Virus record (IMG/VR): IMGVR_UViG_3300050014_000668
Location: 1 to 33,448 of that record
Length of the DNA: 33,448 nucleotides
Source of the DNA: a virus
Reading direction: 5' to 3' (one strand)
The notes under the pieces were generated by a model, which was given only the letters and a program-made list of their open reading frames with translations, was not told where the DNA came from and searched no databases. The position numbers were made by a program, and so were the translations under genes. Each line of letters begins with the position of its first letter. Positions within the stretch are counted from its first letter, which is position 1. Positions 4,077 to 17,949 of this stretch are shown piece by piece.

Positions 4077-5228
4077 TTGAAATCCCCTTTCCCATGGTTC
4101 GGAGGCAAGTCCACGGTGGCCCAGGAAGTCTGGGACGCCTTTGGGGACGTTCGGAACTACGTTGAGCCGTTCTTTGGATCCGGCGCGGTCCTGCTGCTCC
4201 GGCCCCAGCCCTTCACCGGTTCCGAGTCTGTCAACGACAAGGACGGTTTCCTGGCGAACTTCTGGAGGGCCATCCAGGCAGACCCGGAGGCGACCGCGAA
4301 CTTTGCCGACTGGCCGGTAAACGAGAACGACCTCCACGCCCGGCACATCTGGCTCGTCCAGCAGCGTGAAACTCTCACCGCAAGGCTTGAGGGCGACCCG
4401 GACTTCTTTGATCCCAAGATCGCCGGGTGGTGGGTTTGGGGAATCTGCTCATGGATCGGGTCCGGCTGGTGTTCAGGGAACGGACCCTGGTCCATCGAGG
4501 AGGGGCAGTTGACCGATGCCCGCAAGCGTCCCCACCTGGGTAACGCTGGGATGGGCGTGAACCGCAAGCGTCCCCACCTGGGTAACGCTGGGATGGGCGT
4601 GAACCGCCAGCTTCCCCACCTGGGTAACGCTGGGAGGGGCGTGAACCGCAAGCGTCCCCACCTGGGTAACGCTGGGATGGGCGTGAACCGCCAGCTTCCC
4701 CACCTGGGTAACGCTGGGAGGGGCGTGAACCGCCAGCTTCCCCACCTGGGGGACGCTGGGAGGGGCGATGTCATTCTCGCAACCTTCATGGAACTGGCGG
4801 AACGGCTCCGCAATGTTCGGGTGTGCTGCGGCGACTGGACGCGGGTCATGGGCGATTCAGTGACGATCAAACATGGCATCACGGGCGTTTTTCTCGACCC
4901 GCCCTATGCGGATACCGCTGACCGGCAGGAAGACCTCTACTCCGTCGATTCGTCCACTGTAGCCCATGACGTTCGGAAGTGGGCCATTGCCAACGGGGAC
5001 AACCCGTTGCTCCGCATCGCCCTCTGTGGCTACCAGGGGGAACACGAACTTCCCGAAGGCTGGACCTGCCTGGAATGGAAGGCACGGGGCGGTTACGGTT
5101 CCCAGGGCGATACCCGGGGTCGCGAGAACGCCAGCAAGGAACGGATCTGGTTTAGCCCCTACTGCCTCAAGCCATCCACCGAGGCATCCCATCAACTTCT
5201 ATTCGACCAAGACGACCTCGCCGGTTGA
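4077..5228 (+). CDS. D12-class N6-adenine DNA methyltransferase with internal tandem repeat
   Basis: The 383-aa product has the N-terminal PFPWFGGKS (4-12) and FFGSG (32-36) S-adenosylmethionine-binding motifs and DPPYAD at 274-279, the hallmarks of Dam/D12-family methylases. It would methylate adenine in phage DNA, for protection or regulation. The start is TTG 4077, 6 nt after CAGGAG. Between the two motif blocks, codons 149-232 hold six 14-residue repeats of the form RKRPHLGNAGMGVN or RQLPHLGNAGRGVN, encoded by 42-bp units; three copies of the first type are identical at DNA level. The insertion is in frame, so the enzyme is probably intact. Confidence 0.9.
   Translation: MKSPFPWFGGKSTVAQEVWDAFGDVRNYVEPFFGSGAVLLLRPQPFTGSESVNDKDGFLANFWRAIQADPEATANFADWPVNENDLHARHIWLVQQRETLTARLEGDPDFFDPKIAGWWVWGICSWIGSGWCSGNGPWSIEEGQLTDARKRPHLGNAGMGVNRKRPHLGNAGMGVNRQLPHLGNAGRGVNRKRPHLGNAGMGVNRQLPHLGNAGRGVNRQLPHLGDAGRGDVILATFMELAERLRNVRVCCGDWTRVMGDSVTIKHGITGVFLDPPYADTADRQEDLYSVDSSTVAHDVRKWAIANGDNPLLRIALCGYQGEHELPEGWTCLEWKARGGYGSQGDTRGRENASKERIWFSPYCLKPSTEASHQLLFDQDDLAG
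4521..4772 (+). repeat. Six 42-bp in-frame tandem repeats in the methylase gene
   Basis: Units start at 4521, 4563, 4605, 4647, 4689 and 4731. Types run A-A-B-A-B-B'. All A copies are identical, the two B copies are identical, and the last is diverged at GGGGAC and at its end. A and B differ at only a few positions (AAGCG versus CAGCT, GATGG versus GAGGG). Identity between copies points to recent unequal exchange or conversion. Confidence 0.95.
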
Positions 5229-7455: not shown

Positions 7456-7488
7456 TTGACGGGCGCCTGGTTTGACCCACAATGGAAC
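7456..7488 (+). promoter_or_regulatory. Promoter P2 with operator GACCC-ACAAT-GGAAC
   Basis: TTGACG (7456-7461), a 16-nt spacer and CACAAT (7478-7483). The inverted repeat 7474-7488 covers the -10; its right arm is GGAAC instead of GGGAC. The start codon of the next gene is 18 nt behind the -10, so the leader is only about 11 nt and begins almost at the SD. Confidence 0.65.
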
Positions 7489-10262: not shown

Positions 10263-10603
10263 CCCTGCCGCCTCAGAATAGGCCCCACGCAAAGACACGC
10301 CCCATGCCGATACCTGGCCGGTGCTACCGCAATGGTGCCGGCCAGGTTCGTCGCTTTATCGGGGTTGATGAGGGCCACGCGGATTTCATCGTCGTGCTTC
10401 CCGGGCCCGGGGGCGCCTACACCAGCCAATACCCAGCCGGCCACCGCGGGCGCATGGCCATCAACAGCTTCCGGCAGTGGCTGGTGCAGGAGTGCGATGA
10501 GACCGGAGCCATCCTGTCCACCCCGGGGTTAAGGCCCCCCAAGCCGCGCACCGACGGATTATTCAAACGCCTGAAACTTTCACTTGCGGAAAGCGTAGTT
10601 TGA
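10259..10603 (+). CDS. Small basic hypothetical protein
   Basis: ATG 10259 overlaps the previous stop. The 114-aa product has RCYRNGAGQVRRFIGVDEGH and FIVVLPGPGG, suggesting a small beta domain, and a basic C-terminus. No family is recognised. Its last codons contain promoter P3. Confidence 0.55.
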   Translation: MTLPPQNRPHAKTRPMPIPGRCYRNGAGQVRRFIGVDEGHADFIVVLPGPGGAYTSQYPAGHRGRMAINSFRQWLVQECDETGAILSTPGLRPPKPRTDGLFKRLKLSLAESVV

Positions 10604-10616
10604 CCCACAATGGAAC
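10584..10616 (+). promoter_or_regulatory. Promoter P3 with operator GACCC-ACAAT-GGAAC
   Basis: TTGCGG (10584-10589), 16-nt spacer, CACAAT (10606-10611). The operator-like repeat at 10602-10616 is identical in its 15 nt to that of P2. The -35 is weaker than in the other sites. The promoter lies inside the 3' end of the previous gene. Confidence 0.6.
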
Positions 10617-13119: not shown

Positions 13120-13152
13120 TTGACAGGCGCAGTATTTAGCCCACAATGGGAC
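13120..13152 (+). promoter_or_regulatory. Promoter P4 with operator AGCCC-ACAAT-GGGAC
   Basis: A consensus -35 TTGACA (13120-13125), 16-nt spacer and CACAAT (13142-13147). The inverted repeat is at 13138-13152. This has the best -35 of the set. ATG of the next gene lies 23 nt behind the -10. Confidence 0.75.
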
Positions 13153-14627: not shown

Positions 14628-14642
14628 GGACCATAATGGGAC
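14628..14642 (+). promoter_or_regulatory. Operator P5 GGACC-ATAAT-GGGAC with CATAAT box
   Basis: The inverted repeat contains CATAAT at 14632-14637, but the position 16 nt upstream (14610-14615, GGCGCC) is not a -35. This site may be a weak promoter, need an activator, or act only as an operator. ATG 14664 is 27 nt behind the -10-like box. Confidence 0.55.
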
Positions 14643-15534: not shown

Positions 15535-15768
15535 ATGGACACCGTGAAGAGCAAAATCGCCCTTTCAAACCTCCAGCGCGAACTGGATGACCGCTACCGA
15601 GCCCTGCAGAATGCCATCGCCCCGCGCCCGCTCATGAACGGCCACGAAAGATGCCGCCGAGGAAGCTGGGCGCACCCCGAGAACCTGGTCGCCACCACCG
15701 GGACCGAAACTGAGATCAGGCTGGTGGTCGCGGACTTCCAGACCATCCTCAAGGAGATCATTCGATGA
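15535..15768 (+). CDS. Small hypothetical protein
   Basis: ATG 15535 follows AAAGGAC. The 77-aa product is helical at both ends (KIALSNLQRELDDRYRALQN; VVADFQTILKEIIR). It overlaps the exonuclease start by 4 nt, so the two are likely translated together. No family is recognised. Confidence 0.55.
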   Translation: MDTVKSKIALSNLQRELDDRYRALQNAIAPRPLMNGHERCRRGSWAHPENLVATTGTETEIRLVVADFQTILKEIIR

Positions 15769-16499
15769 ATATCCAAGAAGCCATCTTCGGCACGCTGGAC
15801 ACCGAAACCACCGGCCTGGACCCCACCGCGGGCCACCAGATCGTGGAGTTCGCGTTCGTGGCCACCAGCGCCACGGCGGAACTTGACCACGCCACCACTC
15901 TGGTGAACCCGGGCCGACCGATCCCCCCAGAAGCCAGCGCGATCCATCACCTCATCAATGAGGACGTCGCTGGAGCGCCAGACCTGCCCGGCGCCGTCGG
16001 TCCGATCATGATGGAATTCACCGGCCACTATGGGCCGTTCGGAGCCTACGTCGCGCACAACGCCCCGTTCGACAGCGCCTTCCTGCCGGCCTTCATCGAC
16101 GCGCCCTGGCTTGACACCCTGCGCCTTGCCAAGCGGCTGCACCCTGACTTCGACCAGCACGGCAACGAGTTTTTGCGCTACAAGCTAGGCATCACCTACC
16201 CCGGAATCCGCGACGAGGTGCCTCACCGGGCACTGCATGACGCCCGGGTGACGGCGGCGCTGCTGCGGTTTTTCATCCATGAGATCGTCACAGTCCGGGC
16301 CGACTTCCCCCAAAACATCGAGGACTTGATCGCCTTCATCGCCCGCCCGATGATCTTGGCGGCTCCGGTCCAGTTCGGGAAATGGCGCGGTACCCCATGG
16401 AACCAGGTAGACAAAGGTTATTTGAAGTGGATCACCATCCAGCCCGATTTCGACATCGACATCATGGCAACCGCCAGACACTTCCTAGGCTACAGATAG
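15765..16499 (+). CDS. ExoX-like DEDDh 3'-5' exonuclease
   Basis: ATG 15765 has AAGGAG upstream. The 244-aa product carries Exo I LDTETTGLD (D12, E14), Exo II AHNAPFDSAFL (D103) and Exo III HRALHDA (H154, D159), the DnaQ-type DEDDh set. The C-terminal FGKWRGTPWNQVDKGYLKWI motif is the DUF3820-like module also found at the end of exodeoxyribonuclease X. It should degrade DNA 3' to 5' in repair or replication. It ends the unit before the GGNNN array. Confidence 0.85.
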   Translation: MNIQEAIFGTLDTETTGLDPTAGHQIVEFAFVATSATAELDHATTLVNPGRPIPPEASAIHHLINEDVAGAPDLPGAVGPIMMEFTGHYGPFGAYVAHNAPFDSAFLPAFIDAPWLDTLRLAKRLHPDFDQHGNEFLRYKLGITYPGIRDEVPHRALHDARVTAALLRFFIHEIVTVRADFPQNIEDLIAFIARPMILAAPVQFGKWRGTPWNQVDKGYLKWITIQPDFDIDIMATARHFLGYR

Positions 16500-16510
16500 C
16501 TAACACGACG

Positions 16511-16837
16511 CGGCAGAGCAGGTTTGGTGGGGTAATGACAGGGAAGGTGGACCACGGTCCGTTTGGGCTTGGCAGGCTAGGGAAGACGCGGACTGGTCAT
16601 CTACGGCATGGCAGGCGAGGAATGGCGAAGCATGGTGAGGCACGGTCTAGATTGGTACGGCAGGCGTGGATAGGACGGGCAAAGCAAGACGGAGTGGGAC
16701 ACGGCATAGCAGGCAGGGCGAGGCGGGGTGAGGTGAGACAAGGCCGGATTAGGCATGGCAGGCAGGGATAGGTGGAGCAAAGAGGGCACGGGGGGCAGGC
16801 GAGGAAAGGCTCGGTAGGCGGGGAGCGGAACGGCCGG
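16511..16837 (+). repeat. GGNNN pentanucleotide array with 4-nt phase slips
   Basis: GG (sometimes AG, GA or a single G) recurs every 5 nt through this stretch. The phase slips by one base at GGCA, AGCA or GGTA at 16571, 16610, 16659, 16708, 16757, 16794 and 16813, each directly followed by GG. Slips at 16610, 16659, 16708 and 16757 are exactly 49 nt apart, so the central part consists of 49-nt units of one tetramer plus nine pentamers. No credible gene is present. G2N3 spacing fits two-tier G-quadruplexes. Confidence 0.85.
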
Positions 16838-16844
16838 TTTGGAG

Positions 16845-16877
16845 TTGACGAGTATATTATTTGTCCCATAATGGGAT
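16845..16877 (+). promoter_or_regulatory. Promoter P6 with operator GTCCC-ATAAT-GGGAT
   Basis: TTGACG (16845-16850), 16-nt spacer rich in A and T, CATAAT (16867-16872). The operator is at 16863-16877. It lies just after the GGNNN array and 47 nt before ATG 16919. Confidence 0.75.
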
Positions 16878-16918
16878 AAACAAGCCGGATACACCGGCAC
16901 GCAAAGGAGCAGCACGCC

Positions 16919-17548
16919 ATGGCAAAGAAATCGGCAATGACGCCCAACACCGCAGAAGTCGGCATCCGCAAGATCCAGATCATCCTGCGCGGAAGGCCCG
17001 GGGCGCCCCTGGTGATCCATGCCTTCGCCGACAAGGCCAAGGAGGAGATCCGCCAGAAGCAGGCCAAGAGCGCCAAACAGGCGAAGGAAGCCCGGCAACC
17101 GGAGGTCGAATTCCTGGCTGCGCGCTATCTGGATGGCCAGGGCCGAGAATGCGCGCCCGTCACGGCCATTAAGAAAAGCCTGATCACTGCGGCCACGGCC
17201 TTTGATGACATGACCAAGGTCGCGCTGCGCCAGGCGATCTTCGTGGCGCCCACGGCCGACCCGGCCAGCATGCTGGTGCCCATCGAGAAGCACGACGGAA
17301 CCCCGGCGATCGGGAGGATGCGCGAGGACGCAGTCACGATCGGGATCAACACCCGCGGGCTGACCTACCGGCCGGAATATCCAGAGTGGCAGCTTCGGGT
17401 CAACGTCGAATTCAACCCCCGGCTGGTGAGCGAGGAGCAACTTCTTGCCCTCATCGACCAGGCCGGATGGGGTGTCGGCATCTGCGAAGGGCGCCCAGAG
17501 CGATCGAGCGCGCTGGGGTGGGGGCGGTTTGAACGGGTCGAGGAATGA
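16919..17548 (+). CDS. Conserved phage protein of unknown function
   Basis: ATG 16919 follows AAAGGAGCAGCACGCC. The 209-aa product has a lysine-rich region about 40-60 and a C-terminal half with REDAVTIGINTRGLTYRPEY, VNVEFNPRLVSEEQLLALID and GWGVGICEGRPERSSALGWG. The last motif (GVG-x-C/G-E-x-RP, then G-x-FG-like) is familiar from a widespread phage protein family with no known role; this recollection is not verified. It is the first gene behind the array and P6. Confidence 0.65.
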   Translation: MAKKSAMTPNTAEVGIRKIQIILRGRPGAPLVIHAFADKAKEEIRQKQAKSAKQAKEARQPEVEFLAARYLDGQGRECAPVTAIKKSLITAATAFDDMTKVALRQAIFVAPTADPASMLVPIEKHDGTPAIGRMREDAVTIGINTRGLTYRPEYPEWQLRVNVEFNPRLVSEEQLLALIDQAGWGVGICEGRPERSSALGWGRFERVEE

Positions 17549-17949
17549 CCAAGCCGATCCCGGTCCCACGCGAAGGGATCGCATCCTGCTGCAATGCCCT
17601 GGTCCTGCCACGTCTTTGTGACATGGAAGAAATCAGGGCGTGGTTCCTCAGAGGCCTTCCTTATCACGGAGGCGTGGATGCTGAGTCCATGCGCTTCATT
17701 AAGGCATTGGATCCTCTTCCAGAGCGCTGGGAGGATTGGCCGGAAGCATCCAAACTGGCCTGCCCGATATCCGAACTTGGGACTGGCCAGAGATACCGGT
17801 GCAGGCTGCTTGGCGAGGATGGACTCTGCACCATCTACGACCGCAGAACCTACGTCTGCTCCCAATACAAGCCGGCGGCGACCGAATGCCGCACATGCAA
17901 ATGGTTCAAGGATGGAAAGTGCCAACCGGCACCATTGGAGGGAAGATGA
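17545..17949 (+). CDS. Cysteine-cluster protein (YkgJ-like)
   Basis: ATG 17545 overlaps the previous stop. The 134-aa product has CC at 15-16, CPIS, then CRLLGEDGLCTIYDRRTYVC and CRTCKW, CQP. The C...G-x-C-x-IY-x-R-x-C core is like the YkgJ-type cysteine cluster that binds zinc or an iron-sulphur centre. Function is unknown. Confidence 0.6.
   Translation: MTKPIPVPREGIASCCNALVLPRLCDMEEIRAWFLRGLPYHGGVDAESMRFIKALDPLPERWEDWPEASKLACPISELGTGQRYRCRLLGEDGLCTIYDRRTYVCSQYKPAATECRTCKWFKDGKCQPAPLEGR

Follow-up and report, generated by a model that had tools for sequence, protein, structure and literature searches.

What is served by a stretch of viral DNA in which GG recurs every five nucleotides over more than 300 nucleotides and the rhythm slips at intervals by a single base? 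The stretch lies on the + strand at 16521-16845 of the window, that is, of the entire 33,448-bp viral contig that was analysed (IMG/VR record IMGVR_UViG_3300050014_000668), between an exonuclease gene and an ORF at 16919-17548. With a probability of roughly 0.93, it is a guide-RNA (vrRNA) array of a VIPR system, with the product of this ORF as its Vipr protein.

VIPR was first described in April 2026 (bioRxiv 2026.04.26.720920, 27 April 2026; v2, 25 June 2026; PMC13142463). In this preprint, a phage RAMP protein (Vipr) acts together with vrRNAs, the NN dinucleotides of which recognise DNA with 1 nt skipped each time. Such RNA-guided recognition of DNA is proposed to predate CRISPR; phages use it to silence genes, the published targets being mainly genes of rival phages. 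The described Vipr has about 20 kDa and an RRM/RAMP fold with a glycine-rich loop, and each vrRNA consists of 9-16 tandem GGY/NN (YNNGG) pentamers, followed in type II VIPR by a conserved structured 3' tail. The preprint also reports small-RNA expression, co-purification with Vipr, target repression, an accessory gene (vap) and reprogramming experiments. It names ribozyme-interspersed arrays and also staggered ones, in which vrRNAs overlap (supplementary figure). If the locus in the window operates like the published systems, the array would be transcribed as the + strand, and Vipr subunits would line the RNA so that every GGYNN unit has its own; GGY would be gripped by the protein, NN would pair with double-stranded DNA with one base skipped per unit (xNN), and bound targets would be repressed. 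To this scheme we would add, from comparative data, the tetramer GGCA as a boundary, each block between two boundaries being one guide.

Over 16521-16845, the autocorrelation of G reaches 0.31 at each of the lags 5 and 49 and 0.25 at lag 98 (z 5.4-5.9), values matched by none of 1000 first-order Markov shuffles, and it drops to 0 at lag 50. Both the 5-nt clock and the 49-nt super-period, which an earlier note on this DNA had claimed, are thus borne out. A dynamic-programming parse resolves the stretch into 67 units of the GGYNN type in about seven blocks, with a score of 35.2 compared with shuffle maxima of 8.0 (whole-window Markov) and 15.8 (300 shuffles with the array composition). The slips were found exactly at the positions given at the time (16571, 16610, 16659, 16708 with AGCA, 16757, 16794 and 16813 with GGTA), the spacings between successive main slips being 39, 49, 49 and 49 nt; additional weak slips occur at 16781, 16790 and 16832. 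The array that had been placed at 16511-16837 is real, but it begins at 16521, or at 16517 if a leading AGCA (16517-16520, + strand) is included; this tetramer is a probable array-initial boundary marker, and many GGCA-type arrays in relatives also open with GGCA.

On the + strand, block 0 (16521-16574) comprises 10 units and the GGCA at 16571, and block 1 (16575-16613) 7 units and the GGCA at 16610. Blocks 2 (16614-16662), 3 (16663-16711) and 4 (16712-16760) hold 9 units and 49 nt each and end with GGCA (16659), AGCA (16708) and GGCA (16757), respectively; their NN dinucleotides read GA AT GA AT GA AC CT TT AC in block 2, GT TA CG AA AA GG GG AC AT in block 3 and AG GA GG GA GA AA CG TA AT in block 4. 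Four blocks thus have 9-10 units and one has 7, and the last two are irregular: block 5 (16761-16797) with its terminal GGCA at 16794, and the final block 6 (16798-16845) with GGTA at 16813 and GGCC at 16832. The array is looser than most (86% G at each of the two GG positions, i.e., 14% non-G), and given this looseness and the irregular blocks 5 and 6, it may be partly decayed. A tandem-repeat search gave no array-wide unit, and a simple tandem repeat was therefore discarded as a description.

Similar stretches recur in other phages, as the earlier note had stated: in IMG/VR, at least 120 stretches contain thirteen GGs spaced 5 nt apart. Among the matches listed, most are not simple repeats, the trimers between the GGs differ, and the G+C content of the loci ranges from 0.29 to 0.76. 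The unit in 152 arrays at 113 listed loci, the window included, is GGYNN, with C at.66 and T at.26 in position 3, and GGCA is by far the commonest tetramer in these arrays. Position 3 is also mostly a pyrimidine in the window (C.47, T.30; Y 77%) and in its close relatives (C.66, T.23). The non-G positions had been regarded as unconserved, which applies to the variable bases, since they differ between relatives, but not to position 3, so the unit is GGYNN rather than GGNNN. Some arrays (L281, L282, L293 and L301) contain many GTYNN in place of GGYNN, apparently at recurring sites within blocks.

The array is tied to one gene family. Among the listed loci selected by the GG pattern, the gene upstream of the array runs on the G-strand in 94 of 110 cases, and in many loci no more than 20 nt separate its stop codon from the start of the array. 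Of 83 such upstream genes, 39 match phrog_4652 and 14 match phrog_15946, two families annotated as of unknown function, with no recurrent Pfam family among the genes. According to an iterated profile, 89 of the 120 loci listed for the GG pattern encode a relative of ORF 16919-17548. The converse search, with two sub-alignments of a 72-row Vipr alignment, found a 5-nt array in 147 of 160 protein-selected viral loci, near-duplicates included, and arrays of period 4, 6 or 7 in 0, 3 and 0 of them. In GTDB genomes, an array is present at 30 of 35 Vipr loci, which include loci of Rhizobium, Sphingomonas, Ancylobacter, Lachnospiraceae and Faecalibacterium. The 15 closest relatives (66-78% identity) all carry an array adjoining vipr, with different variable bases; the same-locus conservation that had been expected is thus found, and the proposal that selection acts on GG spacing and not on a protein is supported.

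The gene in question, vipr (16919-17548, + strand), encodes 209 amino acids without a Pfam family match and is assigned to phrog_4652 (E 1e-20); the PHROG numbers gave no match in a literature search. An AlphaFold model based on 72 sequences (pLDDT 91, pTM 0.84) was compared with the PDB by VIA-align over the candidates proposed by Foldseek, and the leading matches in this list are all Cas7-type RAMPs (Cas7/Csm3/Cmr6-type). The best one is Csm3 of E. italicus, with Z 11.9, a Foldseek probability of 1.00 and an rmsd of 3.4 over 154 residues, and W157, G183, G187 and G202 are invariant in the 72 relatives. Judged by this model, the protein has the RRM/RAMP fold described for Vipr. The Vipr of Escherichia phage phiSUSP1, the lead example of the preprint, is reached only weakly by tblastn with the single window protein (E 0.1), and the family profile matches it with E 6e-47 (hhalign probability 98). 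Moreover, our parser, which had been built before the preprint was known, finds three phiSUSP1 vrRNAs at the intergenic places described in PMC13142463. On the strength of the profile match and of the recovered phiSUSP1 vrRNAs, the window is taken to be a member of VIPR.

If the NN dinucleotides read genes with a 1-nt skip over the wobble base, their composition should resemble that of codon positions 1-2. For 13,111 units, this phase gave the best fit, although not an exact one, with weights of.78 for the sense and.19 for the antisense orientation and 0 for other phases. Target evidence for GGCA-type arrays consists of two blocks of one relative, Rhizobium leucaenae L284. Its 11-unit block, read with the 1-nt skip against 148 genomes of the genus, gave two matches with at most 2 mismatches, where by our estimate about 0.25 are expected and a reversed-pattern control gave 0. 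The two sites belong to phage portal genes that are homologous to each other (phrog_12, E 1e-83); they are in frame, the skipped bases are wobble bases, and a single dinucleotide holds both mismatches. Between the sites, only skipped bases vary. The second block, of 9 units, has one perfect match (0.03 expected by our estimate) and two matches with one mismatch, in homologues of one small gene and again in frame; a further match, the fourth, has no relation to these, and one match came from the control.

Other searches gave no targets beyond chance. A block of Sphingomonas L288 matched none of 295 genomes, and a single match for a block of Lachnospiraceae L301, with 3 mismatches and an in-frame stop, was treated as chance. 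An exact gapped scan of viral contigs gave two matches for block 2 of the window, compared with about 2.6 expected by chance on our estimate; one of them, in L316, falls within a phage ORF and keeps its frame, yet is no more than chance predicts, and it was not retained as a target. Blocks 3 and 4 had no exact gapped match in the viral contigs. Self-targeting was likewise rejected, block matches within the window being at the level of shuffled blocks. Across 2.3 Mb flanking VIPR loci, there was no excess of 1-nt-skip matches; 3-nt-skip matches were in excess there (31 vs 5-12), which probably reflects unmasked array remnants.

The 49-nt super-period is the recurrence of a GGCA tetramer every 8-14 units, and it is specific to one Vipr lineage. 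GGCA accounts for 396 of 557 tetramers in the protein-selected loci. The 325 uninterrupted GGCA-to-GGCA intervals have a median of 54 nt, and 90% of them are 8-14 units long; their coefficient of variation is 0.30 vs 0.95 for random placement. On a tree of 260 Vipr proteins, GGCA punctuation requires 9 changes, where shuffled labels require 74 (minimum 61); the Vipr of the window sits within a GGCA clade. Two very long arrays of 169 and 229 units (L164:4619-5462 and L229:5245-6370) contain at most one GGCA. From the sequence comparisons, GGCA would probably be a guide boundary, each block corresponding to one guide; with GGCA taken as the boundary and blocks of 7-10 units, the window would encode about seven guides.

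An unlikely alternative accepts the VIPR array but not the boundary: vrRNAs would overlap GGCA in a staggered manner, or GGCA would only reset the register. Staggering of this kind is indeed mentioned in PMC13142463, and read-through of GGCA, with its single variable base, is conceivable. The matches of both L284 blocks to their two target genes, however, start and stop at GGCAs, none running past, and the arrays of the Gordonia phages ODay and Ecliptus match at their ends and differ by one whole GGCA-bounded block. The spacing of 8-14 units is also in keeping with the 9-16 units published for a vrRNA, a comparison which assumes that a block equals a vrRNA. With GGCA as the boundary, one can go further, tentatively and with rather less than even confidence: one Vipr lineage, to which this phage belongs, may pack a series of interrupted guides into a compact polycistronic array with GGCA as the sole separator, a four-base counterpart of the CRISPR repeat. 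Gain and loss would then affect whole guides between GGCAs, and cutting or stopping there would be due to Vipr or a host enzyme.

It is very improbable that the array, instead of guiding, is an RNA to which the RAMP binds for autoregulation or as a scaffold. The array nearly always adjoins the RAMP gene, in the direction of its transcript, as such a role would have it; hypervariable NN with a codon-position composition, in-frame matches in a phage gene and the published reprogramming (PMC13142463) would nevertheless be left unexplained. The roles suggested in the earlier note, those of a G-quadruplex in replication, recombination or the structure of the transcript, are still harder to sustain. 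GG every 5 nt formally permits two-tier quadruplexes and some arrays lie near recombination genes, but a quadruplex needs no pyrimidine in position 3, no GGCA every 8-14 units and no adjoining RAMP gene, features which, together with the codon-like NN, fit a guide-RNA array. That G-rich DNA produced the pattern by chance or by slippage of a simple repeat, for which a G content of 46% might speak, can practically be dismissed, given that same-composition shuffles fall far short, that the trimers between GGs vary and that periods 4, 6 and 7 are all but absent from the 160 loci.

With the stretch read as a vrRNA array, its neighbours can be considered. The DnaQ/RNase_T-type exonuclease upstream (15765-16499, + strand; PF00929, E 3e-20; phrog_192) was rejected as an accessory gene, only isolated exonuclease matches being found among the upstream genes of the listed pattern-selected loci, and is probably not part of the VIPR system. 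A Cys-rich ORF of 134 amino acids with CxxC motifs (17545-17949, + strand) overlaps the stop of vipr and is a possible accessory (vap) candidate; it has no significant PHROG or Pfam match and is unrelated to the phrog_15946 family. Its CxxC pattern is reminiscent of YkgJ-type proteins. In many loci, a phrog_15946 protein (L230:4630-5136 and relatives; motif SPLHxxFEWDDxxAAxxYRLxQAR) is encoded between vipr and the array and is likely a VIPR accessory protein; the family is absent from the window, where no accessory gene was recognised.

Between the array and vipr lies a putative sigma-70-like promoter (TTGACG-16-CATAAT, 16845-16872, + strand), a consensus match that overlaps the palindrome TCCCATAATGGGA (16864-16876). 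Because promoter and palindrome are situated there, the array itself would probably be transcribed from further upstream. Six palindromes resembling CCCAYAATGGRA occur on the + strand (1951-1963, 7475-7487, 10603-10615, 13139-13151, 14629-14641 and 16864-16876); they look alike and in part overlap a -10-like CATAAT, such matches, counted with up to 3 mismatches, are no more numerous than by chance, and the six perhaps form a shared promoter/operator series. Elsewhere in the window, a 42-bp repeat in six copies, 94% alike (4520-4767), encodes a 14-residue repeat (RKRPHLGNAGMGVN-like) inside the ORF of a D12-class DNA methyltransferase (4077-5228).

The window thus adds a previously unannotated example of VIPR, and GGCA provides a simple rule for dividing long arrays into single guides, which would make sequence-based target prediction possible across a large lineage spanning Alphaproteobacteria, Actinobacteria and Clostridia. 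The boundary rule is our own inference; the main text of PMC13142463 neither mentions GGCA nor explains the 49-nt super-period, and its supplement may or may not already contain the rule. If GGCA is indeed a processing signal and turnover proceeds block by block, a minimal guide array could grow and change without CRISPR repeats.

Among known systems, the RAMP fold relates Vipr to the class 1 CRISPR effector subunit Csm3/Cas7, from which it differs by a sequence identity of about 11% and by a unit of 5 nt with fixed GGY. A tandem-repeat search of the window found no CRISPR direct repeats (20-50 nt) with spacers, and PHROG and Pfam scans of the neighbouring ORFs found no cas families. The type II VIPR of Escherichia phage phiSUSP1 shares with the window a homologous Vipr RAMP, a GGY/NN pentamer RNA on the gene strand, and a short, phage-encoded locus. 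Unlike phiSUSP1, with separate vrRNAs of 12-16 units, each with its tail, the window would have its guides head to tail with GGCA in between; only 4 nt separate the blocks, an Rfam scan of 15700-17700 gave no match to a hammerhead or other known RNA, and phiSUSP1 has a different accessory gene. The Gordonia phages UmaThurman, Pipp, ODay and Ecliptus, whose vipr genes are annotated as 'hypothetical protein', encode Viprs 34-36% identical to that of the window and carry GGCA-punctuated arrays as it does, located downstream of vipr in these phages and upstream in the window.
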